Source of the DNA: Thermogemmatispora onikobensis
GTDB taxonomy: Bacteria; Chloroflexota; Ktedonobacteria; Ktedonobacterales; Ktedonobacteraceae
Assembly (NCBI RefSeq): GCF_001748285.1
Contig: NZ_BDGT01000014.1
Coordinates: forward strand, 1-64,000
Length of the DNA: 64,000 nucleotides
Direction of reading: 5' to 3'
Part shown: piece after piece, positions 5,399 through 44,640 of the stretch
Position numbering within the stretch: the first letter of the stretch is position 1
How the letters are laid out: the number at the start of each line of letters is the position of its first letter
Translations under genes and position numbers: made by a program
The notes under the pieces: generated by a model
What the model was told of the DNA's origin: nothing
What the model saw: only the letters and a program-made list of their open reading frames with translations
Databases searched by the model: none

Positions 5399-5776
5399 GA
5401 GCCGCCTGCCTCTTGCTGGTCCCTCTTTCCCTGCCGGGCGCTGACGGCCCTGCTCTTCTGCATCTCGGTCTCTGAAGCTGCGCGTCAGAGTGTTGGCCTC
5501 CTGTAGCTCTCCTTCTTTCTCTCCTCTGCATCTGCCTCAGCGAGGGCCAGGCGACGAGCGGATCAAGCAGCCTGCTGTACCGGCTGCCAGATCAGACCTG
5601 TCCAGAGCCTCGGCCTGCGCTCCTCTCGACTGATAACCCCAGTTTTGAGGCCGATCTGCTTCTGATAGCTCGAGGAGGCCAGGCGCGCTGCGCTGCCCAG
5701 GTAGCGGAGACGAGAGCCGTCGGGCAGCTGTCCCCTGCCAGCTGAGGGTGGCGTTGACCGGATTGGGAGAGAGCTT
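5399..5776. other. intergenic region between convergent genes, no gene recognised
   Basis: About 380 nt between rimM and the TIR-like gene. Open frames here are short and have no recognisable protein signature. No clear U-tract terminator is visible. Confidence 0.5.
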
Positions 5777-7570
5777 TTAGACCTTATAAGGTGCCACATT
5801 CAGGGCCGCCAGTTCTGGCAAGTGATCGAAAATCCAGACCGCACCGCCGCTACGGAGGCCTGTGGCCGGATTCACCTCACCAATAAATGCCGTACGTGCC
5901 TGACTGAGCAAGTCGTCGAGCAGAGGGATGGTCGACGATGCCAGCAGCTGCTTGGGAGCCATATGGACCAGCTGGCGTGCATCCTGGCGTACCTGATCGA
6001 GATTAGCCTTCACGCGGTTCAGCTCGCTGTCGATCTGTCCGGCGAGCTGGCGCTGAGTGACCGAGGAATGGGGAGAGCTTGTCAGCGCGATCAGGTCCAG
6101 CTCGATATGGCGGATATAGCCGGGCACGGGCAGGGCCTTCTCATCCAGCGTTAGCAAAGGAACGCGCCCCACAGTTGGATCGACCAGGACGGGTGTGCCG
6201 CGGGGGACATCGTGGGAGACCAGCTCGGTGCCATCCAGGTAGTCCAGAATCTTCACCAGGGCCTGGTGCATCTCCGTGGCATTGCGCGGAACCCCGGTGC
6301 CGCGGGCTGCCGAGGCCCACTCGAAGATCTTGCTCACGTTCTCAAAGAACCAGACGCTGAGCCCTCCGTGGAGCGATAACTGATCCAGCTGAGGCTCGCT
6401 GCTAAGCAAGTGTCGCAGATGGTCCAGATTGCTATAGTGGACCATAGTATTGCCGACCGTCTCAGCCTGGGGATCTGGCACCTGGGGGATCTCTGCGTAG
6501 TAGCGCCAGTGGGTCAAATCAGCGGTTGGCGAGTCGGGCGTCAAAGCCGCGCTTTCCTCTGTGATCAGAAAGCGACTATAGCTATTCAGGAGATTTTGGT
6601 GATTGGGGCTGTTGTAGCGCAGATCGAGGTGGCCATTCACGGGAGTGAACTTCGCTAGCAACAAAGCGCCCCCGAGCTGACTTTTATCGCGCAGCAGCCA
6701 GGCGTAGAAACTCTGGCCGCTCTGAGGGGAACGTAGATTCTGCAGATGAATATCGAGTCCATCACAGATCCCGGTCGTATTATCGGCTCCGGTCAGACCA
6801 GTATTAAAAAACTCCAGGCGGCCATAGCTGATAGCGGCGGCGCTGCCAGTGGCGGGCGTCTGAGCGGAGTGGGTCAGGAGCAGAGCCATGACGGTGCCGA
6901 GAACCAGCGTAGCGACCAGCAAGAAAGAGAGGCCAATGATGGCTCGTCCTCGCTCCGTAGTTCCAAAGTAGAACTCCTGCAGAGGGCTGGCGGAGGAAAC
7001 GAGCCTGCCAGGGGGGAGAACTGGGCGATCGTAATGAGCTTGAGCCGAAGGGCGGGAAGGAAAAGCTGCGAGCCCGCCTGGAGCGGAGCCAGGCGAAGGG
7101 GTAGGCGTCAGGGCCTGAACCGTCTGAGGGGGAGCAAGCAACGGCGCTCGCTCTTTTTCCAGCGTCAACACCAGCTTCTCGATGGCCCGCGGATAATCGT
7201 AGGAGCCGTCGAAAGTGGGCAGAGCGGTCCACTCAGAAGGTGTCTCCGTCGACGACCCCTCGGGACTGGCCAGGAAGCGGAGCGCCCCCTGCAAGCGGTG
7301 CTGCTCCAGGAGCTTCAAAGCCGTATTGACGGCCATGCGTACCTGATAGGACTGAGCCGTTGTAGAAGTCTGAAATAGGATGAACCACTGGAGATCGGGC
7401 AGAGTCTGATTCAAAAAGGAGAGAAAGCCATCGTCGCTGACATGGCTCGGATACACAATGACGGTAGCACCCACCTCCTCAAGCCGCTGGCGCAAACGAG
7501 TTAGAATTTGTAATTCCTGATGAGCCTTTGTATCAAGGTCATGACAAATGAAGACGCCAGGCGAACTCAT
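5777..7570 (-). CDS. membrane protein: degenerate TIR-like domain, TM helix, RskA-like extracytoplasmic domain
   Basis: About 597 residues. Residues 1-150 look like a TIR-type flavodoxin fold (GVFICHDLDTKAHQ, then strands with TVIVYPSHVSDDGFL and WFILFQTSTTAQSYQVRMAV). The position of the catalytic glutamate of NADase TIRs (normally in a W..E motif) reads YQVRM, so enzymatic activity is unlikely. A proline/serine-rich linker leads to one TM helix (GLSFLLVATLVLGTVMALLL, about 210-235). The outer part has an IHLQNL...GQSFYAWLL...LITEE pattern like the anti-sigma-K (RskA) domain, followed by a helical C-terminal region. Start ATG 7570 is preferred to 7591, because the family-like sequence begins MSSPGVFICHD. 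It is divergent from the vWA-PP2C-kinase-WXG100-EssC run and may sense or signal for it (inference). Confidence 0.7.
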   Translation of the reverse strand: MSSPGVFICHDLDTKAHQELQILTRLRQRLEEVGATVIVYPSHVSDDGFLSFLNQTLPDLQWFILFQTSTTAQSYQVRMAVNTALKLLEQHRLQGALRFLASPEGSSTETPSEWTALPTFDGSYDYPRAIEKLVLTLEKERAPLLAPPQTVQALTPTPSPGSAPGGLAAFPSRPSAQAHYDRPVLPPGRLVSSASPLQEFYFGTTERGRAIIGLSFLLVATLVLGTVMALLLTHSAQTPATGSAAAISYGRLEFFNTGLTGADNTTGICDGLDIHLQNLRSPQSGQSFYAWLLRDKSQLGGALLLAKFTPVNGHLDLRYNSPNHQNLLNSYSRFLITEESAALTPDSPTADLTHWRYYAEIPQVPDPQAETVGNTMVHYSNLDHLRHLLSSEPQLDQLSLHGGLSVWFFENVSKIFEWASAARGTGVPRNATEMHQALVKILDYLDGTELVSHDVPRGTPVLVDPTVGRVPLLTLDEKALPVPGYIRHIELDLIALTSSPHSSVTQRQLAGQIDSELNRVKANLDQVRQDARQLVHMAPKQLLASSTIPLLDDLLSQARTAFIGEVNPATGLRSGGAVWIFDHLPELAALNVAPYKV

Positions 7571-7630
7571 GACGTGCCCTCGCTTTGGCATAGGATATGG
7601 CTCTTCTTAACCAGCAAGAATATCTCTGTG

Positions 7631-7659
7631 AGTATAACATGGTGTGGTATCATATTCAA
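7631..7659 (-). promoter_or_regulatory. promoter of the TIR-like membrane protein gene
   Basis: Minus strand TTGAAT (7654-7659), 17-nt spacer, TATACT (7631-7636), about 60 nt before the start codon in the divergent intergenic region. Confidence 0.6.
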
Positions 7660-7773
7660 GCTGAGGGTGTTTTGAGAGGCCGCGTTACTGGCAAAACGGG
7701 AGGCTGACGGGTCATAAGCGCAGCGGTCTTCAGCGGCCCGACTAATTTCTGGACCGGAGAGGAGGCAGAGACG

Positions 7774-8523
7774 ATGTACTACACGCAGCCGGCGACCTCC
7801 CTCACGCCGGCGCTGGTCATCTACCTGATTGATGCCAGCCACTCCATGAATGACCCCTGTGGCCCCACCACCAAGATGGGGCTGGTCAACCGGGCATTGA
7901 AGGAAGCAATCAAAGACATGGTCCGGCGTTCCATTCGCGATGGCATTGTCCAGAGGCGCTACAAAGTAGCGATCTTTGCCTATAGCACAGCAGTTGTCGA
8001 CGTGCTGGGGGGGGTCCGCGACTTGCCGGAGCTTGTCAAGCACGGCGTGCCAGTCATCAGCGCTGGCGGAGAGACCGACACCGCCGTCGGCTTCGCAGCA
8101 GTTGAGAGCCTCCTGCAAAAGCACCTTACCGAATTTGACGCCTGTCCTGCCCCTCTAGTCTGTCATCTGACAGACGCACTCATCACAGCCAGCGATCCCA
8201 CGCCGATCGTGCGCCGTATTCAAGCGATGGCCGTACGTGATGGGCCGGTGCTCGTTGAAAACGTCTATGTGGCCGATAACATGTTGCGCGCGCCAGTCCG
8301 CGACTGGCATCAGTGGGGAGGGGTCACCCGTCCTGGCCAGCTCACGAACGACTATGCGCGCTTTCTCTTCTCCCTCTCCTCACCGATGCCGGAGATCTAT
8401 CGGCAGAATATCAACAACTACGGCTACAACCTGCAGTCGGGGGCGGCCCTCTTCTTCCCGGGTGTTCACACCGACCTGGTGCGTCTGGCCTTCACCATCT
8501 CGACCGCGACCCAGCTGAAATAA
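7774..8523 (+). CDS. TerY-like von Willebrand factor A (vWA) domain protein
   Basis: A single vWA domain filling all 249 residues. The metal-ion-dependent adhesion site is intact: DASHS at 20-24, the later Thr in GGETDTAVG, and an aspartate in HLTDALITASDP. The form (short vWA beginning at the N-terminus with an LIDASHSM strand and a long RALKE helix) matches TerY-type proteins. In known TerY-P triads this protein is encoded beside a PP2C phosphatase and a protein kinase, exactly as here (33 nt before the PP2C gene). GAGGAGGC precedes the ATG by 9 nt. The role is probably phospho-dependent assembly or scaffolding (inference from family and context). Confidence 0.85.
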   Translation: MYYTQPATSLTPALVIYLIDASHSMNDPCGPTTKMGLVNRALKEAIKDMVRRSIRDGIVQRRYKVAIFAYSTAVVDVLGGVRDLPELVKHGVPVISAGGETDTAVGFAAVESLLQKHLTEFDACPAPLVCHLTDALITASDPTPIVRRIQAMAVRDGPVLVENVYVADNMLRAPVRDWHQWGGVTRPGQLTNDYARFLFSLSSPMPEIYRQNINNYGYNLQSGAALFFPGVHTDLVRLAFTISTATQLK

Positions 8524-8556
8524 GATCGTCTCGCGCCAGAGGAAGGAGCGAGAGCC

Positions 8557-9435
8557 ATGCTATCCGAGGACATCGAGCGGACAGAGCAGCCTGAGCCAAC
8601 GCATCTACGCTTTGAGACCGATCGAGAGAGCGAGTACTTTACCTCGCACACCATCAATAACCGGGTCGTTTTACGGCTGCTATCGCTGCGCAGCCGCGAA
8701 GCCCAGACCCAGGCGCTGGCCAATCAAGACTATGCTCGAGTCGTGGCCAGTCGCGATGGCACAGCCCTCTACTTCTGTGTCTGCGACGGCGTGGGCAGCT
8801 CATATCGCGGCGACTTTGCGGCCCGGTATCTGGGCCGCGCCGTGGTTGCCTGGTTACAAGAGCAAGAGGCGCGCACAGGTACGGTCAGGACCATAGCGGC
8901 CCGCCTGCGCCAGCGCATGGACGAATGGGCGCGAGCTGCCCAGGAAGAGCTGAGGAGCCTGCCCCTGGCGCCAGAGGCGCCGGCGCTTGTACGCGAGGTG
9001 CTGGAAGAGCTGCGGGAGGACTACGGTAGCGAGACCGTCTTTCTGGCTGGACGCATCGCTCTGGCTCCCTGGGAGGCCCAGCTACAGATAGCTCGCCCCA
9101 CTGAAGCCTTGCTCTGCTGGATGGGCAATGTCGCTGCCCGCCTCTTTGTCTCCGGCGAACACTCCTTTACACTCGGGGGCAGCACCGATGATGAAGGACG
9201 CTGGTCAACGGTACGCGGCACGCGCGGCTTGCTCAATGCCTGGAGCGTGGGCCTTTCCACCATTGAGCGCCTGATCGTCTACACCGATGGCCTGCTGCCT
9301 CTGGCCTCCTCTCTAAGCGAATTAAACGATCAAGAGCTGCAAGAGCGCGCTCGTGAGCTGCTGCTGCTCCCGGAAAACGACGATATGACCGCGCTCGATC
9401 TGCACTGGCTGCCAGCGGGCCACCCGCCCGGGTAA
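8557..9435 (+). CDS. PP2C-family protein phosphatase
   Basis: Mn/Mg-dependent Ser/Thr phosphatase of 292 residues. After a 45-residue N-terminal extension it shows NQDYARVV (motif with metal-binding Asp), CVCDGVGSSYRGDFAARYLG (core DGxG motif, D77), SETVFLAGRIAL, a LIVYTDGLLPLA strand, and the C-terminal ENDDMTALDL motif. These cover most PP2C metal-binding positions, so it should be active. AAGGAG stands 9 nt before the ATG. It lies between the vWA and kinase genes, as in TerY-P modules where phosphatase and kinase act on the same targets. Confidence 0.87.
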   Translation: MLSEDIERTEQPEPTHLRFETDRESEYFTSHTINNRVVLRLLSLRSREAQTQALANQDYARVVASRDGTALYFCVCDGVGSSYRGDFAARYLGRAVVAWLQEQEARTGTVRTIAARLRQRMDEWARAAQEELRSLPLAPEAPALVREVLEELREDYGSETVFLAGRIALAPWEAQLQIARPTEALLCWMGNVAARLFVSGEHSFTLGGSTDDEGRWSTVRGTRGLLNAWSVGLSTIERLIVYTDGLLPLASSLSELNDQELQERARELLLLPENDDMTALDLHWLPAGHPPG

Positions 9436-9563
9436 GGCCCTGCGAAAGGCGGGATGACCGTAGAATCAGCAACTCCCTCCTGGTACGCACTGGCCTGCCT
9501 CACACCTGGCCTGGTGCCGTTCGCACTGTGAGAGAAGAAGAAGAAGGAGAAGGAGATTGAGCG

Positions 9564-10496
9564 GTGACACGCTTTCAACCGTTTCCTGGCATGTTTTTGC
9601 GGATTGGCTCATCCTATTTCGAATTTCTGCCCCATCCCCTGCTGCCAGCTGACAAAGAAGCCGTATTTGTACTCGAAGGGGGAGAAGCGCTCGTCTATCA
9701 GGTGCGCAATCTGGATACGCAGGAACGCTGGGCCCTCAAAGTCTTCAAAGCCTCCTATCGTGGGCCACACCTGATGCGTGTGACGGAGGTGTTGCAGCGC
9801 CATGCCCATCTGCCAGGTCTCTATCTGGGCTACCGCATCTGCCTCACACAAGCCCACTATCCAGAAGCGATCGGAGCTTTTCCCGAGTTAGAGTACGCCG
9901 TGCTGATGCCCTGGATTGAAGCACGCACCTGGGCTGGTCTCATGCTGGATCAAGCGGCCAGCGTGAATTACAGCTTTGAACAGGCGCGCCAGCTGGCGCT
10001 CGCCACAGCTCAGGTACTCTGGAACCTCGAGATTCACAGCCTGGCTCACGGGGACATCGCTGGGAGCAATATCTTGCTCACGCCACAGCTCAGTGGGGTC
10101 CAGCTGCTGGACCTGGAGGGCCTCTATGCCCCTGGCCTGCCTCAGCCCAAGAAAGTCAGCTGGGGATCACCGGGCTACCAGCATCGCAATCTACCGCGTC
10201 AAGGTCAATGGGGCCCCCACGGGGATCGCTTCGCGGGCGCTGTGCTGCTCACCGAAATGCTTACCTGGTGGGAGCCGCGCGTTCGCGCCTACGTCGCCGA
10301 CCACGCGGAAACGCTTTTTTCCCCACAGGAATTGCAACAGATTCAGACTCCTCTCTGGCGAGTGGTGCGTGATGTACTGCTCTCTCTCAGTCGAGACTTG
10401 CTCTACCTCTTTGATCAAGCCTGGGCATCCTCAAGCCTGATAGAATGCCCTGAACTGGCGACATGGGCCATGACACTCTATTCAATTTTCGTGTAG
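9564..10496 (+). CDS. atypical protein kinase of the vWA-PP2C-kinase triad
   Basis: Kinase-fold protein of 310 residues, starting at GTG 9564 with AAGGAG 8 nt upstream. The N-lobe has a glycine-containing EGGEALVYQVRN loop and WALKVFK with the ATP-binding lysine. The catalytic loop reads HGDIAGSNILL, with Gly in place of the usual Arg of HRD. The metal-binding DFG is replaced by DLE (LLDLEGLYAPG), and GSPGYQHRNL stands for the APE region. The Asp and Asn of the catalytic loop are kept, so activity is possible as in other HGD kinases. It closes the triad. Likely substrates are the vWA protein or parts of the following secretion genes (inference). Confidence 0.82.
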   Translation: MTRFQPFPGMFLRIGSSYFEFLPHPLLPADKEAVFVLEGGEALVYQVRNLDTQERWALKVFKASYRGPHLMRVTEVLQRHAHLPGLYLGYRICLTQAHYPEAIGAFPELEYAVLMPWIEARTWAGLMLDQAASVNYSFEQARQLALATAQVLWNLEIHSLAHGDIAGSNILLTPQLSGVQLLDLEGLYAPGLPQPKKVSWGSPGYQHRNLPRQGQWGPHGDRFAGAVLLTEMLTWWEPRVRAYVADHAETLFSPQELQQIQTPLWRVVRDVLLSLSRDLLYLFDQAWASSSLIECPELATWAMTLYSIFV

Positions 10497-10501
10497 TCGC
10501 A

Positions 10502-10559
10502 TTGCTTTTTCGGAGAATAATCGGTATCATTTTGTCTAAAGCATGTTATACGAATGCTT
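10502..10559 (+). promoter_or_regulatory. promoter and dyad upstream of the WXG100-YukD-EssC genes
   Basis: TTGCTT (10502-10507), 17-nt spacer, TATCAT (10525-10530). Just downstream AAGCAT (10539-10544) and ATGCTT (10554-10559) form a perfect 6-bp inverted repeat that would overlap the transcription start, a typical operator position. The leader to the WXG100 gene would be about 260 nt and holds no other feature that I recognise. Confidence 0.5.
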
Positions 10560-10796
10560 CTTGAATTGATGTATTGATATGCTTGAGCCGCTGCAAGACA
10601 AGGAGGGCTCGCAAGCGGAGAGGCCGGGCAAGGCGCTCTCGCCTGGTAAAAGAGATGGGGGAGACAGGCGGAGCAAGCGAGGTATCTTGGGCGTGAGCTT
10701 TGCCGAGCTGACCTCAGCTGTTTTGTGTGCTTCTGGGGGCTGGTCTCAAGCATTCCTGGGTTTGGTTGTCACATTCACAGCGAGGAGGAACCTGCC

Positions 10797-11105
10797 ATGT
10801 CCTCACAGGGGGATCTGATTGGTGGTCGTACCCATCAGATGGATGCTGCCGCTCAGCGCTTTCTCACGGAGCTTGCGAACTTTGAGCCGGCTGTCCAGCG
10901 CATTACCGCTGCGGTTGCGGACCTGGAAGCCGACTGGTTTGGACGCGGCAGCGTGGCCTATCAGAATGCCATGACTATCTGGAATACGCATATGAGCGCG
11001 GTCCTGCGCGATCTTGAGCAGCTCACCAGGGGCTTGCAGGGCAGCTCGACAGCCTTGCAGGATCTGGACCATACGATGGCCTCCCTGTTCAGCGGCTACG
11101 AGTGA
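10797..11105 (+). CDS. WXG100-family (EsxA-like) protein
   Basis: Small helical-hairpin protein of 102 residues, the expected size for secreted ESX/type VII substrates or chaperone partners. The central turn reads ADWFGRGS, a WxG motif, between two amphipathic helices (QMDAAAQRFLTEL..., then YQNAMTIWNTHMSAVLRDLEQL). The C-terminus FSGYE lacks an obvious YxxxD/E export signal. Start ATG 10797 is chosen because GAGGAGGA lies 8 nt upstream; the upstream in-frame residues do not resemble the family. Next genes encode YukD- and EssC-like proteins, which supports the assignment. Confidence 0.88.
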   Translation: MSSQGDLIGGRTHQMDAAAQRFLTELANFEPAVQRITAAVADLEADWFGRGSVAYQNAMTIWNTHMSAVLRDLEQLTRGLQGSSTALQDLDHTMASLFSGYE

Positions 11106-11285
11106 TCGCAGGGAAGCAAAGCAGCACAGTCAGCAGAGACATCCCCTCTCGCAGCCTATTCTCTGGCGGCCTCTGGCTACAGTCGACGGAGGCCGCCAGC
11201 ACTCTGAGCACCTCAATTTGCAAGAGTGGCAGGGCATCGCAGTCCAATCCCACCGGGTACTGCCGGGGAAAGGGAGGGAGAAGCT

Positions 11286-11690
11286 ATGCGTAACAGAGCA
11301 CTGGTAACCGTTGTAGGGCCGGACCGTGCTCTCGATCTAGAGCTGCCGACTGATTACACTATCGGTGAACTGCTTCCTTTTCTGTGTGAACTCTGTGCTG
11401 CCCCCATGAGCAGGTCGACAGGAGGCGAAGGGGAGGAAGACGGGGAGGCAAGGGCAGAAGAGGAGTGGCTGCTCTTCATCGAAGGGTTCCCTGATCCGCT
11501 GGCTTCAGGGCAGACGCTGAGCGAGGCCGAGGTATGCGATGGCATGCGTCTGCTGCTCCGGACTCTTCCTCCCAACAGCGACCAGGTTGCTGCCGCTGAC
11601 ACGCAGGAGCTATTCTTGCCCTCCTTCATTGTCCCAAGCGACAGCACGGGCGGTATTGGAGTAACCTGGGAACAGCTCCCGTTATCCTGA
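11286..11690 (+). CDS. YukD-like ubiquitin-fold protein of the type VII locus
   Basis: A protein of 134 residues whose first part (ALVTVVGPDRALDLELPTDYTIGELLPFLCELC) matches the beta-grasp start shared by YukD and the cytosolic domain of EccD. A variable acidic insert (about 48-65) follows, then WLLFIEGFPDPLASGQTLSEAEVCDGMRLLLR, the usual end of such folds. There is no TM segment, so it resembles the free Firmicute YukD rather than the membrane-bound actinobacterial EccD. GGGAGG precedes ATG 11286. It lies 180 nt after the WXG100 gene and 23 nt before essC. Confidence 0.8.
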   Translation: MRNRALVTVVGPDRALDLELPTDYTIGELLPFLCELCAAPMSRSTGGEGEEDGEARAEEEWLLFIEGFPDPLASGQTLSEAEVCDGMRLLLRTLPPNSDQVAAADTQELFLPSFIVPSDSTGGIGVTWEQLPLS

Positions 11691-11713
11691 GCTGGCCATG
11701 ATGAGAAGGTGTT

Positions 11714-14700
11714 ATGCAGAAGCAGGCTACTACCTTTTATCGTCCAGCTCGCGCCTACCCGCCGCGGCTTCCGGACGACGAGATTGTCATTAGCGCCCCA
11801 CCAACGCTGCAGCCAGCCCAGAGCGGTCCACTCAACTGGCTCCAGTACGTTTTGCCAGTACTGGGCAGCGTGGGATCGGTTCTTTTCATGTTCACCTTCC
11901 ATACGAACCCGCTGATGATGGTGCTCAGTGGGAGTATGGGAGGTCTCATGATCTGTTCCGGCCTGATCATGGGCTTTGTGCAGCGCTATGCGCTGAAAAA
12001 GCAGCAGCAACAGCAGCGCAGCCTCTACCTCGCCTATCTCGAACGGGTGCGCAAGCATCTGCTTGGTCTGGCCAAGGAGCAGCGGCTCATTGAGCAGCGG
12101 CTTTATCCTTCCTATGAGGAGCTGGCGGAGCGCGTCGAGAGCCGTCAATACCTGTGGGAGCGGCGCCCCACCGACTTTGACTTCATGATGACCCGTATCG
12201 GCTTCGGGCCTGGTCCCCTCTGCTGCCCTCTGCGCGTAGATAGAGGTGATGCCAATTTCATGGTGCAGTATGTACCAGAGCTACGAGCCCAGGCTGAGGC
12301 GCTGGTTGCCGAATATAGCTATCTCAACGATATGGCGGCCACCGTCCCTCTGCGCTCCTTTGGCACTCTAGCGATCAGTGGGGACCTCCATGCGGCCCGG
12401 GCCTTGGCGCGGGCGATGATCTGCCAGCTCGTGACTTTTCACGCCCCGGAAGATGTGCGCTGTGTGGTCTATTTCCCTGGCGAGCGCGTTGAGGAATGGA
12501 GCTGGCTGAAATGGCTGCCCCATGTGCGGCGTCTCCATCAGGTCAAAGCCGAGCGTCGCTATGCGCCCGAGCAGCTCTGTATGCTGGCGACGACTGCCGA
12601 GGATCTACGGCGAATTCTGCAACAGCAGATTAAACCAGAGATCGAGAGGCGCACTCGTCTAAGCGAGGAAGCCGGCAACGACCAGCAGCAGCGCAAGCGC
12701 GCCGCTCAGGCCTGTCTTCCTCACCTGGTGGTGGTGCTCGATGGCTTTTCCCCCCATCGTCCCATTGGCCAGCTTCCCGAGCTGGAGCAGCTTTTTGTCG
12801 AGGCTCCCCGGGCCGGCGCCACGGTACTCTGCCTGGTTGAGGATCGTTCTCAAGAGCCGGCGGCCATTCAAGCGCGACTGGCCCTCTCGGAGGTGGGCGG
12901 CCTCCACTTTGAAGAGATCGCCTACGGTGGCCGCCGTCTGGAGGGCCTACTGCCTGATCATGTCGAGCCGACCCTCTGTGAACGCATCGCTCGCAGTCTG
13001 GCCCCGCTTACTCTTAGCGAGGCTACCCAGCAGGATCTGGCGCAGGATATCCGCTTACTTGAACTCTTGGGCCTTCCCTCCGCTGATAGCTTCAGTCCTG
13101 ACGAGTGCTGGCGAACGAGCGAGCGGGAGCACGAGGATTTCTTGCGTGTTCCCATTGGACGCCGTGCCGATGGGTATCCCCTGCTCCTCGACCTGAAGGA
13201 GGCCGCCGATAAGGGGATGGGGCCGCACGGCCTGATTGTGGGCGCTACTGGTTCTGGGAAGAGCGAGCTGCTGCGCACGCTGGTCAGCGCTCTGGCTATG
13301 ACCCACGACCCGCGCTCTCTCAACTTCGTGCTGATCGACTTTAAAGGCGGGGCCTCGTTCAATGATTTCCAGGCCCTTCCTCACGTGGTGGGCGTGGTGA
13401 CTAACCTGCAAAGCGATCTCGCGCTGGTTGATCGCGTCTATGCGGCTCTGCTCGGCGAGCAGCAGCGACGCCAGCGCATGCTGCGTGACGCAGGTAACCT
13501 CGACAATATTAAGCAGTATCGCGCCAAGTGGAAGATGCATCCCGAGCTGGAGCCAATGCCCCATCTGCTGATCATTGTCGATGAGTTCGCCGAATTGATT
13601 GCCCAGCGTAGCGATTTCTTGGATCTTTTTGTGACGATGGGGCGTGTCGGGCGTAGCCTTGGCCTCCACCTCCTCTTTGCTACCCAGCGTCTGGAGGAAG
13701 GGCGCATCAAGGGATTAGAGAGCCATCTGCGCTATCGGATCTGTCTGCGTACCTACAGCGCGGCAGAGAGCCGGACAGTGCTGGGAACGGCAGATGCCTA
13801 CTACCTGCCCTCGGTCCCAGGTATGGGCTACTTCAAGGTCGATGTCGAGACCTATGCGCTCTTCAAGTGTGCTCTGATCTCAGTCCCCTATTTGCCATTG
13901 AAAGAACAAAATTCGATAGAAAGCAAGATCCGCGTCTTTACTGCTAATGGAAAGCTTCTGCACTACCAGCAAGTGAGAGGCAATGAGCGCGGGCCCTTGG
14001 TCTCTCGGGCCGTACCTGGTTCTGCCGAGCTGCATACAGAAATGGATGTCATTATTGAGCGCCTGGCCCAGGCGGTGCCGTCGGCCTTCACGCGGGCCAT
14101 CCACCAGGTCTGGCTGCCTCCGCTGCCCCATGTTCTCACGCTTGAGGCGGTGCTTGCCCGCACAGAGCAGCCGCGGCTGACGGGGTGCTACGAGAGCGAG
14201 ATTCCGCCCTTTGGCGATTTGCGTGTGCCGGTTGGCCTGCTTGACAAGCCGCTAGAGCAGGCGCAAGAGCCGCTGTGGCTGGATTTCTCCGGCACTGGTG
14301 GTCATCTTTCCATCGTTGGGGCGCCCCAGTCCGGCAAGAGCACCTTTCTACGCACGCTGGTTACGGCTTTTATGCTGACACATACGCCGCGCGATGTCCA
14401 GTTCTACTGCATTGACATGGGAGGGGGCCGCCTGCGCATCTTTGAGCAGGCCCCTCACGTGGGCGCTGTCTGCAGCCGGCCCGAGCGCGACAAGATCAGG
14501 CGCGTGGTGCGTCAGATGCGGCGAGTGATCGAAGAACGTGAATTCCTGTTCCGTGAGCGCGGCATTGACAGCATGACAACCTTCCGTGCCATGCGCCAGC
14601 GCGGCGAGCTGGATGACGTGCCCTTTGGCGATGTCTTTCTGATCATCGATAACTTCGCCCAGTTCCATCAAGACTTCGATCAGCTGGAGCCTGACCTGGT

Positions 14701-15832
14701 CGAAATTGCCTCTAGCGGCCTGGCCTATGGCGTCCATCTGATCATCGCAACCAGCCGCTGGGCCGAGGTCCGTCCCCGTTTGCGCGACAATATTGGCACG
14801 CGCTTAGAGCTGCGCCTCAACGACCCTGTCGATTCGGAGCTAGGGCGAGCGCTAGCGGCGGCCATTCCTGCAGGTGTGCCGGGGCGTGGGGCCAACCGTG
14901 AGAAACTCTTCTTTCAGATTTCCTTGCCGCTGCTGATAGATGACAGGCAGGCAGAGATCGAAGATCTCCATCAGCGTGTTCAGCAGTATCTCCTGAGCCT
15001 CATTGAGCGCATACGTCAGGGCTGGAAAGGATTAGTGGCCCCGCCGGTCTTGATGCTGCCGCCGCTGGTGCGCTGGGAAGACCTGCCGGAGCCGTTGCCT
15101 GGGGAGCCGCCAGGGGTACCGATCGGGCTGGAAGAGTTTCGTCTGAAGCCAATCTATATTGATCTGATTGGGGGTGGTCCCCACTTCCTGATTCTGGGCG
15201 ACAGTGAGTGTGGCAAGACCACGCTGCTGCGTAGCTGGATACGTGGTCTGGAGAAGCGCTACACGCCTCAGCAGGTCGCCTATGCTATCATCGACTTTCG
15301 CAAGCGGCTGCTGGACTTTATCGACAGTCGGTCCTTATTGGTCTATGCCTACAACAGCCAGACCTTAACGAGCTGTGTAGGCAATCTCAAAGTGGACCTG
15401 GAGCGACGTCTCAGGAAGGTCTCGGAGGTGCCGTTGAGCGAGCTACGTCGCCCGCGGCAATGGGATGGCAGGCATTACTTTCTCTTCGTTGATGACTATG
15501 AGGCAATTGGGGGGATGAGCGGCAGCCCACTGATGCCACTGCAAGAATACCTGATTGTGGGGGGCGATATCGGCTTCCATCTGGTGCTTGTACACCGTGT
15601 GGGAGGGGCCTCCCGAGCTCTGTTTGAGCCGATCATGCAGCGTCTCCGCGAGATGGGAACGCCGGGCCTCATCATGAGCGGTGACCCGATGGAGGGGAAG
15701 CTCTTACACGGCCAGGCGGCGACGCCCTTGCCACCTGGCCGGGCCTACCTGGTGCAGCCGAAGCATCCACCGATGTTGGTGCAGCTCGCCTTTGCGGCGC
15801 CGCAGTGGGAGGAGCCTCAACCCGCGAGTTAG
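11714..15832 (+). CDS. EssC/EccC-type FtsK/SpoIIIE ATPase of a type VII secretion system
   Basis: Motor and substrate receptor of an ESX-like system; 1372 residues, the normal size of fused EccCa-EccCb. Order: N-terminal PPRLPDDEIVISAPP like EccC, two TM helices (about 45-65 and 68-90), a regulatory DUF-type domain, then three ATPase domains. Walker A motifs are GATGSGKS (510-517), GAPQSGKS (869-876) and GDSECGKT (1162-1169). Walker B is complete in domain 1 (LLIIVDEF, D623-E624), but domain 2 reads LIIDNF with Asn in place of Glu, and domain 3 reads LFVDDYE. That fits the known pattern of one active and two degenerate sites. No FHA domains are present, unlike Firmicute EssC. The stop is separated by one base from the convergent ROK gene stop. 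Confidence 0.92.
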   Translation: MQKQATTFYRPARAYPPRLPDDEIVISAPPTLQPAQSGPLNWLQYVLPVLGSVGSVLFMFTFHTNPLMMVLSGSMGGLMICSGLIMGFVQRYALKKQQQQQRSLYLAYLERVRKHLLGLAKEQRLIEQRLYPSYEELAERVESRQYLWERRPTDFDFMMTRIGFGPGPLCCPLRVDRGDANFMVQYVPELRAQAEALVAEYSYLNDMAATVPLRSFGTLAISGDLHAARALARAMICQLVTFHAPEDVRCVVYFPGERVEEWSWLKWLPHVRRLHQVKAERRYAPEQLCMLATTAEDLRRILQQQIKPEIERRTRLSEEAGNDQQQRKRAAQACLPHLVVVLDGFSPHRPIGQLPELEQLFVEAPRAGATVLCLVEDRSQEPAAIQARLALSEVGGLHFEEIAYGGRRLEGLLPDHVEPTLCERIARSLAPLTLSEATQQDLAQDIRLLELLGLPSADSFSPDECWRTSEREHEDFLRVPIGRRADGYPLLLDLKEAADKGMGPHGLIVGATGSGKSELLRTLVSALAMTHDPRSLNFVLIDFKGGASFNDFQALPHVVGVVTNLQSDLALVDRVYAALLGEQQRRQRMLRDAGNLDNIKQYRAKWKMHPELEPMPHLLIIVDEFAELIAQRSDFLDLFVTMGRVGRSLGLHLLFATQRLEEGRIKGLESHLRYRICLRTYSAAESRTVLGTADAYYLPSVPGMGYFKVDVETYALFKCALISVPYLPLKEQNSIESKIRVFTANGKLLHYQQVRGNERGPLVSRAVPGSAELHTEMDVIIERLAQAVPSAFTRAIHQVWLPPLPHVLTLEAVLARTEQPRLTGCYESEIPPFGDLRVPVGLLDKPLEQAQEPLWLDFSGTGGHLSIVGAPQSGKSTFLRTLVTAFMLTHTPRDVQFYCIDMGGGRLRIFEQAPHVGAVCSRPERDKIRRVVRQMRRVIEEREFLFRERGIDSMTTFRAMRQRGELDDVPFGDVFLIIDNFAQFHQDFDQLEPDLVEIASSGLAYGVHLIIATSRWAEVRPRLRDNIGTRLELRLNDPVDSELGRALAAAIPAGVPGRGANREKLFFQISLPLLIDDRQAEIEDLHQRVQQYLLSLIERIRQGWKGLVAPPVLMLPPLVRWEDLPEPLPGEPPGVPIGLEEFRLKPIYIDLIGGGPHFLILGDSECGKTTLLRSWIRGLEKRYTPQQVAYAIIDFRKRLLDFIDSRSLLVYAYNSQTLTSCVGNLKVDLERRLRKVSEVPLSELRRPRQWDGRHYFLFVDDYEAIGGMSGSPLMPLQEYLIVGGDIGFHLVLVHRVGGASRALFEPIMQRLREMGTPGLIMSGDPMEGKLLHGQAATPLPPGRAYLVQPKHPPMLVQLAFAAPQWEEPQPAS

Positions 15833-15833
15833 G

Positions 15834-17093
15834 CTAACGATCGCGACCGTGCAGGCGGCGAGGATTCAGTCGGGGATGGGGAGGCGCTGCGGGACCAAGG
15901 TCGTCGGGTAGGTGAGGTCCTGGTAGAAGGGGACGCTCGGCGAGCGAGCGACTGAGATCATCGCTGGTCGGGGGATAGCGATAGGAACGGACATCCCGCC
16001 TCTGGGCAGCGGCCAGCTCTTCACGCGCCGGTCCGCCTCCGCCAGCCAGCGCAGAGGGCTGCTGAGAGGGTGGTGCAGGTAAGGCCCCCTCAGCCTGGCT
16101 GGCTGGTACAGGAGCCAGAAACGGTACGGCGCTCCCGATGAGAGCGGCATCCCGTCCCAGATACGCCGGAACAATGCTCAGAGCCTGTACACGCTGGCTC
16201 TCCTCCACCGTCGGTGGCCCCCCAGATTGTGAGAGCAGCGAGTGGCGCAGATGGCTGAGCAGGAGCTCGTCGGCATTGAGCAGGCCGTTACCCACTACTA
16301 CCACCTCGGGAGCAAAATGGCGCACATAATGGGCCGCAGCAACTCCAAGCCAATGCCCTACCTCCTGATAGAGAGCGAGCGCCAGCCCATCGCCTCGGGC
16401 CGCTTCCTCGGCCAGCAATTGGGCGCTGAATTGCTCACGATTGCTAAGGCGCTGAATCAGACTACTCGGCTCACCCCTACGAGCGGCGCGCTGAATCAGA
16501 CGCTGGAGCGCCTCTAGCGAGACCAGGGTACTGATGCAGCCGCGACGCCCGCAGCTACAGCGCGGGCCATTATTGGCGACAGGCAGATGACAGACGTGGC
16601 CAGTGCAGTCGCGGGCCGTCGGCTCCGGTTGCCCATCGCTGATCAGGGCCGCTCCCACAACCGCTTGAACGGTGAGCAGCAAAGCACGACGTCTGCTCCT
16701 GGCGGCGCCAAAGGCATATTCGCCCAGCGCCGCCGCATCCACGTCGCTGTGCAGGCGCACGGGCAGGTGATAGCGCGTTTCCAACAGATCGCTCAGGGGG
16801 AAGTGGTTGAGTGAAGGCAGGAGAGGAATGAGAAAAGGACGGCGGTATGTCTGGTCAAGTTTTCCTGGCAAGGCCAGGCCAATGCCACGCAAGGCGTAGC
16901 CTGCTCCCGTGGCTCGCTGCAAGGCGGCATCTATCGCTCGTAGATATGGCTCCAACGTGGCCCGTGCTGGACGCCCGCGCAGCGTTCTGGCTTCGAAGCG
17001 CTCCCAAACCTGACCGTCGGCAGAAATAATTGCGATCGTTGCCCGACTGCTTCCAATCTCCACCCCGACCGCTGCGCTCAGCTCTCGCACCAT
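15834..17093 (-). CDS. ROK-family protein (sugar kinase / regulator-like, no HTH)
   Basis: ROK fold of 419 residues. It begins VGVEIGSSRATIAIISADG (ATP-binding phosphate 1 motif), and has GIGLALPGKLD, HSDVDAAALGEYAFG, and the zinc site CSCGRRGCIS typical of ROK proteins. No N-terminal helix-turn-helix is seen, so it looks like a kinase form rather than a NagC/XylR repressor; yet the usual EIGH-type motif preceding the zinc site reads DCTGHVCHL, so substrate and activity are uncertain. The last 100 or so residues are proline/alanine/arginine-rich low complexity, not part of the fold. It has its own operator-bearing promoter (17118-17241) and is downstream of the glycerol operon. Confidence 0.8.
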   Translation of the reverse strand: MVRELSAAVGVEIGSSRATIAIISADGQVWERFEARTLRGRPARATLEPYLRAIDAALQRATGAGYALRGIGLALPGKLDQTYRRPFLIPLLPSLNHFPLSDLLETRYHLPVRLHSDVDAAALGEYAFGAARSRRRALLLTVQAVVGAALISDGQPEPTARDCTGHVCHLPVANNGPRCSCGRRGCISTLVSLEALQRLIQRAARRGEPSSLIQRLSNREQFSAQLLAEEAARGDGLALALYQEVGHWLGVAAAHYVRHFAPEVVVVGNGLLNADELLLSHLRHSLLSQSGGPPTVEESQRVQALSIVPAYLGRDAALIGSAVPFLAPVPASQAEGALPAPPSQQPSALAGGGGPAREELAAAQRRDVRSYRYPPTSDDLSRSLAERPLLPGPHLPDDLGPAAPPHPRLNPRRLHGRDR

Positions 17094-43854: not shown

Positions 43855-44640
43855 ATGCGGCATGGAGCGCCCCTGGATGGCGAAAAGACTGTCCAGATTG
43901 TCCATCGGATCGCCAGTGTGCTGCGCGCCTTTCATAGTCGCCGTTTGCTAGGGATCACTGACCTGGCCCAGGCGACGGGCCTGCCCAAGTCGACGACCCA
44001 TCGTTTGGTGACAGCCCTGGTGAATGAGGGTTTACTGATTCAGGATGAAGATACGCATAAGTACGGTTTGAGCTTGCATGTTACCGCCCTGAGCGCGAGC
44101 GTCCTGAGTTCTCATGCAGTACGTAAAGTGGCCCGGCCCATCCTGATGGAGTTGCGTGACCAGACGCGCGAATCGGTCCATCTGGCCGTGCTTGAAGGGG
44201 TGGAGGTGGTCATTATCGATACAGAGGATTCTTATTTCTTTGTGCGCGTCGTGAATGTGCCAGGCCAGCATCTACCAGCACATGCGGTGTCGACCGGCAA
44301 GGTGTTGTTGGCCTATCAGTGGGAGCATCGCCTCAGCGAGCTGATTGGGCAGATCAAGCTGGAGCGCTACACGGAGCGGACGATCACCGATCCTCGACGC
44401 TTTATCGAGGAGCTGCGTCGGGTGCGGATGCAGGGCTATGCGGTCTCAAGTGGCGAGCTGGAGGAAGGCGTCGATGCGGTGGCTGCGCCCATTTTTGACC
44501 ATCTTGGGGCAGCCGTAGCTGCCGTCTCGATTGGGGGACCAAGCGAGCGCTTTCATCCACGTCTCTCCGACTTTATTGAGGCGGCCGTGCACGCGGGCCA
44601 ACGCATCACTCAGGCCCTGCGCTATGTGGGCTGGAACTAG
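43855..44640 (+). CDS. IclR-family transcriptional regulator
   Basis: 261 residues. N-terminal winged HTH: VQIVHRIASVLRAFHSRRLLGITDLAQATGLPKSTTHRLVTALVNEGLL. C-terminal effector domain: HLPAHAVSTGKVLLAY (effector-loop motif), GYAVSSGELEEGVDAVAAPIFDHLGAAVAAVSIGGPSERF. These are the standard IclR motifs, and the length is normal. The divergent hydrolase gene is its most likely target, in response to a small organic acid (inference). An alternative start inside the first 10 codons is possible; GGGGGAGA precedes ATG 43855. Confidence 0.94.
   Translation: MRHGAPLDGEKTVQIVHRIASVLRAFHSRRLLGITDLAQATGLPKSTTHRLVTALVNEGLLIQDEDTHKYGLSLHVTALSASVLSSHAVRKVARPILMELRDQTRESVHLAVLEGVEVVIIDTEDSYFFVRVVNVPGQHLPAHAVSTGKVLLAYQWEHRLSELIGQIKLERYTERTITDPRRFIEELRRVRMQGYAVSSGELEEGVDAVAAPIFDHLGAAVAAVSIGGPSERFHPRLSDFIEAAVHAGQRITQALRYVGWN

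Follow-up and report, generated by a model that had tools for sequence, protein, structure and literature searches.

The genome of Thermogemmatispora onikobensis (Chloroflexota, Ktedonobacterales; coded G000, 5.56 Mb) carries, in the stretch of 64,000 nucleotides analyzed here (the window; positions 1 to 64,000 of NZ_BDGT01000014.1, part of contig 14, G000:C14), a seven-gene type VII secretion system (T7SS) cassette whose secretion and control genes form one inherited unit. The features that mark a T7SS in general, a three-P-loop EccC/EssC ATPase and a co-encoded WXG100 protein, are both present. We consider it fairly probable that this is a mosaic T7SS, in which a T7SSa-like EccC, a WXG100 protein and a free YukD are joined to a T7SSc-type set of von Willebrand factor A (vWA) protein, PP2C phosphatase and kinase and to a protein made of a TIR domain, a transmembrane (TM) helix and an ectodomain (the TIR-TM protein), and in which kinase and PP2C would control toxin export.

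The control trio (vWA, PP2C and kinase) and the secretion core are inherited together, and their link is not chance. A protein search for EccC in 47 Ktedonobacterales genomes and a hidden Markov model (HMM) search for the vWA family in 400 Chloroflexota, Ktedonobacterales included, found the vWA family and clade-A EccC in the identical 17 of the 47 genomes, the other 30 having neither and no genome having either one without the other (Fisher's exact p 4e-13, without correction for relatedness). Presence and absence vary within genera g1, g5, g9 and g17, each time for vWA and EccC together, and the two genomes with two EccC copies each (G012 and G024) likewise have two vWA copies. In L038, L039, L043 and L045/L047/L048 the trio sits downstream or in convergent or divergent orientation, and in L044 it is 6 kb off; gene order is thus shuffled yet proximity is kept, a pattern as expected from selection for proximity. 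Two species of the same genus (G038, G042) hold nothing of window positions 5521–15834, the joint containing 160–210 bp of unmatched sequence, and in another (G040) two deletions (5891–8684 and 8739–15711) have spared 54 bp of PP2C and the outermost parts of the TIR and eccC genes, while only TIR and eccC gene remnants are left in a genome of another genus (G025). Because these empty sites and deletion scars take out the whole unit, the seven genes are gained and lost as one cassette. A sequence-only reading of the window had allowed that trio and secretion genes might adjoin by chance; perfect co-occurrence, mostly kept adjacency and whole-cassette losses in the 47 genomes dispose of that possibility. 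Of the six-gene arrangement whose conservation in Ktedonobacteria it proposed to check, adjacency is mostly kept and the order itself is shuffled among loci.

More broadly, querying the GTDB genome collection with nothing but the vWA alignment gave 80 loci, which are not independent because most are from Paenibacillus; Brevibacillus, Neobacillus and Roseiflexaceae were also recovered. Within 10 kb of the vWA gene, EccC/EssC was encoded in 76 of these loci, a kinase in 74, PP2C in 68 and WXG100 in 75. The four loci without EccC comprise two near contig ends (L070, L072), one with WXG100 genes (L073) and one in a genome with EccC elsewhere (L092, G410).

By sequence kinship, the trio belongs with T7SSc, a system described in Paenibacillus, Brevibacillus brevis and others (Garrett, Higginson and Palmer 2024, PMC11217815), whose parts are a WXG100 protein (TscA), a ubiquitin-like protein (TscB), an ATPase without FHA (TscC), a kinase with a TM helix (TscD), a vWA protein (TscE), a PPM phosphatase (TscF) and an EspG-like protein (TscG). 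Trio HMMs built from Bacillota and other non-Ktedonobacterial T7SSc-type loci gave 300 bits for the window's vWA, 183 for its PP2C and 246 for its kinase, and the three are clearly homologous to TscE, TscF and TscD. Against the window trio, E. coli YegL/PphC/YegI and the plasmid ter operon's TerY/PP2C/kinase reached 20.5 bits at most, whereas YegL matched TerY, as a control, at 64–79 bits; on this HMM and profile comparison, a TerY-P or Yeg kinship is rejected. The ter operon (TerY-P) and E. coli yegL-pphC-yegI share with the window three domain types encoded close together, and since Ter/Yeg scores are low and T7SSc-type scores high, the TerY-P label denotes this likeness of domain types only; the earlier idea of a TerY-P triad re-used for secretion gives way to one of a T7SSc-type set. 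It is likewise very improbable that the trio is a general envelope or stress signaling module of the TerY-P kind, merely adjoining the secretion genes and acting elsewhere. Such a module would fit the shared domain types, the marginal similarity of the window kinase to the Ter kinase (E 2e-4) and two nearly complete Chloroflexota genomes, G301 (L145) and G146 (L148), which have trio-like genes (vWA and kinase in both, PP2C too in L145) and only ordinary FtsK-like matches, with no EccC; it sits poorly with perfect co-occurrence, whole-cassette loss, EccC/EssC near 76 of the 80 loci, and a vWA and PP2C without specific similarity to TerY/YegL or PphC.

Judging from their residues, vWA, PP2C and kinase should all be active. 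The vWA protein has the metal ion-dependent adhesion site (MIDAS) residues D20-x-S22-x-S24, T101 and D134; D20, S24, T101 and D134 are kept in the Ktedonobacterial set and S22 nearly so, and D20, S24 and D134 occur in 38/38 sequences of a wider set. Its predicted structure (predicted local distance difference test, pLDDT, 91.7) matches vWA domains with a best Z of 18.8, and no solved structures related to it by sequence were found. Kinase residues K59, H-x-D-I-A-G-x-N (D164, N169) and D183 are kept in 13/13 relatives, and the PP2C metal residues D58, D77-G78, D244 and D276 are invariant among relatives. The window kinase has no TM segment by hydropathy, whereas the Bacillota kinases (460–720 aa), by the same measure, nearly all have one at about residue 430–470.

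Evolutionarily, the motor has a different affinity. EccC, with Walker A motifs at residues 510, 869 and 1162, passes the EccCa and EccCb models and falls below the cut-off of the EssC model, while the Brevibacillus and Neobacillus T7SSc ATPases show the reverse. Maximum-likelihood trees group it with actinomycete EccC, and a tree constrained to unite it with the T7SSc ATPases is worse by 152 log-likelihood units (p-AU 9e-7, approximately unbiased (AU) test), in trees with some long branches and without a certain T7SSb outgroup, since EssB, sought in relatives of the Neobacillus genome to obtain outgroup sequences, was found in none. The closest relative in a PDB sequence search was 4nh0, annotated as FtsK/SpoIIIE. 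Of the motor called EssC/EccC in the sequence-only reading, the EccC-like three-ATPase architecture stands, while an EssC of the Firmicutes type is not what the NCBIfam models and AU test indicate: both place the motor with T7SSa. The cassette shares this EccC type with the T7SSa/ESX systems of Actinomycetota and differs from them in the added trio and TIR-TM protein and in a YukD that is not fused to an EccD membrane domain, has no TM segment and matches just the N-terminal end of the EccD model; an EccB search was negative in all 47 Ktedonobacterales genomes, with its control silent as well. With T7SSb/Ess-Yuk of Bacillota it shares WXG100, a free YukD and a fused three-ATPase motor, and it differs in its sub-threshold EssC score and in an ATPase on which no FHA was seen; EssB/YukC was found in none of ten Ktedonobacterales genomes tested, G000 included, with a positive B. 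subtilis control.

Two other EccC lineages came to light. Ktedonobacterales have a second, distant EccC clade without the trio (L050, L051, L052, L053, L060), several of whose loci have their own conserved neighbor genes (families F6, F19–F24). A Streptomyces coelicoflavus plasmid encodes an EccC 40% identical to that of the window (L159:9953–18343); WXG100 genes, an EccD-like gene and one for a LamG-type protein share its locus, which has no annotated EccB within 10 kb.

Compositionally, the cassette resembles T7SSc in clustering genes for WXG100, a ubiquitin-like protein, an ATPase with no FHA seen, vWA, PPM phosphatase and Ser/Thr kinase. It differs in its T7SSa-type EccC, its kinase without the TM helix of TscD, the added TIR-TM protein, the GGIGVxW tail of its YukD and its host phylum, Chloroflexota, which is not mentioned in PMC11217815. 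No TscG was detected in G000 at an E threshold of 0.01, a level at which a very diverged one could escape; G001, G012, G020 and the control genome G402 (Neobacillus) do have one. A TscG-like match at window 43855–44640 (E 0.19) was treated as chance. That the cassette is a plain Chloroflexota T7SSc, diverged in sequence along its own lineage but built in no special way, strikes us as rather unlikely. Of the seven component types of T7SSc, six are represented, in full or by their domains, no FHA was seen on the ATPase, TscG relatives occur in the G001 and G020 loci, and other Chloroflexota (L085, L146, L147) have ATPases nearer T7SSc, two of them (L146, L147) with kinases bearing predicted membrane segments, all of which such a system would explain; against these stand the tree position of the Ktedonobacterales EccC and its reversed NCBIfam scores, as well as the kinase without TM and the TscG not found in G000. 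Judged by ATPase type, soluble kinase and TscG search, the cluster falls outside T7SSc.

Structurally, the TIR-TM protein consists of an N-terminal TIR domain, one TM helix (about residues 221–239, by hydropathy) and an extracytoplasmic RskA-like or helical domain. It has no Pfam match itself, its homologs in L047, L041 and L038 exceed the TIR_2 cut-off, and the best Foldseek matches of its model are TIR domains; the model (pLDDT 55.7 overall) is usable in the TIR part alone. Weak Pfam matches suggest two kinds of ectodomain, an RskA-like one in some loci and a jellyroll-like one in other loci, and full-length relatives (>480 bits) occur in T7SS loci of this kind only. In the window protein, another residue stands where NAD-cleaving TIRs usually have their catalytic glutamate (alignment, by eye), which makes a scaffold role likelier, and the TIR domain might conceivably be such a scaffold. 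Extending this, a tentative and somewhat doubtful proposal is a distinct Ktedonobacterial T7SS subtype, in which the function of TscD would be split between a soluble kinase and a TIR-TM protein whose exchangeable ectodomains (RskA-like or jellyroll) would sense the outside and whose TIR, probably without the catalytic glutamate, would recruit the trio to a T7SSa-kin EccC.

As for the putative export substrates and YukD, the C-terminal LQDLDHTMASLF of the WXG100 protein fits HxxxD/ExxhxxxH, the C-terminal pattern reported for WXG100 proteins (PMC3935865). A GGIGVxW-like C-terminal tail was found on YukD in 13 of 16 Ktedonobacterales loci and was absent from the Paenibacillus TscB tails compared; it may be a docking motif. 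Contig 5 of G000 encodes one further WXG100 gene (L062:8952–10238, minus strand), fused to a MafB19-like deaminase (HAE...PCxxC; Pfam scores just under cut-off) and adjoined by several tandem paralogs, each about 300 aa long, which are possible immunity proteins, and Ktedonobacter sp. SOSP1-85 encodes a WXG100-EndoU nuclease protein within its T7SS cluster (L038:7756–8763). From these domains, antibacterial secretion is the likely purpose of the system. It is quite improbable that the cassette is decayed, or exports its own WXG100 alone without toxins: in favor of this, no toxin gene was recognized within the window's cassette, and losses of the cassette are frequent in the genus, but all frames are open, catalytic residues are kept, G000 carries the WXG100-deaminase gene, and a close relative (G039) has a complete cassette with an EccC 95% identical to the window's.

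All six plus-strand genes listed by the sequence-only reading are present in the order it gave, as frames with domain matches (Table 1). Its list stopped one gene short, and its start at 7570 falls within the 5' end of the gene at 5777–7591, the seventh member. WXG100, YukD, PP2C_2, EccCa and EccCb scored 47, 54, 37, 753 and 725 bits, all over the curated Pfam/NCBIfam cut-offs of 27.3, 27, 24, 509 and 347 bits, respectively, and vWA and kinase fell under theirs (24.5 and 24.0 bits). The WXG100 start was set at 10797, and a longer frame from 10725 set aside, because the former is an ATG with a GAGGAGGA ribosome site. Promoter and terminator scans gave sites no more numerous than in shuffles.

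Table 1 Features of the T. onikobensis T7SS cassette, in window positions.
Feature	Position	Strand	Remarks
TIR-TM protein gene	5777..7591	-	604 aa; divergent, left end of cassette
vWA gene	7774..8523	+	T7SSc TscE homolog; MIDAS residues kept
PP2C/PPM phosphatase gene	8557..9435	+	T7SSc TscF homolog
Ser/Thr kinase gene	9564..10496	+	homolog of T7SSc TscD kinase domain; 310 aa, without TM segment
WXG100 gene	10797..11105	+	EsxA/TsxA type; W-F-G turn
YukD/EsaB ubiquitin-like protein gene	11286..11690	+	soluble, 134 aa; C-terminal GGIGVTW tail
EccC gene	11714..15832	+	three-ATPase secretion motor, T7SSa type
Whole cassette (~10 kb)	5522..15833		bounded by empty sites in two same-genus species

Functionally, EccC in a T7SS recognizes WXG100-type helical hairpins and drives their export, and in the mosaic system posited here it would pump out WXG100-bound substrates, including antibacterial toxins with a WXG100 head whose genes lie in other parts of the genome. 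Kinase and PP2C would set the phosphorylation of a cluster component and in this way turn assembly or ATPase activity on or off; EccC, YukD or WXG100 may be the direct target of this switch, as no FHA reader was observed. By way of its metal site, the vWA protein could act as the adaptor recruiting kinase and phosphatase to the motor; the gating role that the sequence-only reading gave it would be speculative. The TIR-TM protein would probably supply the membrane anchor and signal-receiving part that TscD unites in one chain in Bacillota, an envelope-spanning role suggested by a window kinase without TscD's membrane anchor. Since neither the kinase nor the phosphatase has lost any catalytic residue, reversible phosphorylation is plausible; with the inherited unit, this makes phospho-control of secretion, as put forward in the sequence-only reading, plausible as well, though not novel, the association having been published for Bacillota T7SSc (PMC11217815).

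Several observations weigh against this mosaic, phosphorylation-controlled system, the two Chloroflexota genomes with trio-like genes and no EccC among them. PP2C was not found in 5 of the 17 positive Ktedonobacterales genomes and is thus not essential; since vWA is the most conserved control protein (54–98% identity) and occurs in every positive genome, vWA and kinase seem to be what the system cannot do without. Only some of the Ktedonobacterales clusters yielded a TIR-TM protein, whose ectodomain varies between loci, and no FHA domain is among the matches listed for EccC. Finally, the intergenic gaps from vWA through PP2C, kinase, WXG100 and YukD to EccC are 33, 128, 300, 180 and 23 bp, and the 300 bp between kinase and WXG100 make a single transcript for the cluster uncertain.

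The control of secretion proposed here was largely anticipated by Bacillota T7SSc (PMC11217815), the only paper on T7SSc found among the open-access papers searched, where none turned up on T7SS in Ktedonobacteria. Judged by those papers, four features are new: the occurrence in this phylum, the combination of this motor with this control set, a kinase that is soluble and a TIR-TM protein as partner. Since species of one genus have lost the cassette naturally, and since Paenibacillus strains with T7SSc are tractable, whether and how phosphorylation controls T7SS export can be tested directly. The range of kinase/phosphatase-linked T7SSs extends from Bacillota to Chloroflexota too, and because the vWA-kinase-phosphatase set occurs with two ATPase lineages, we argue that it functions as a genuine component of the secretion machinery rather than lying next to it by accident.

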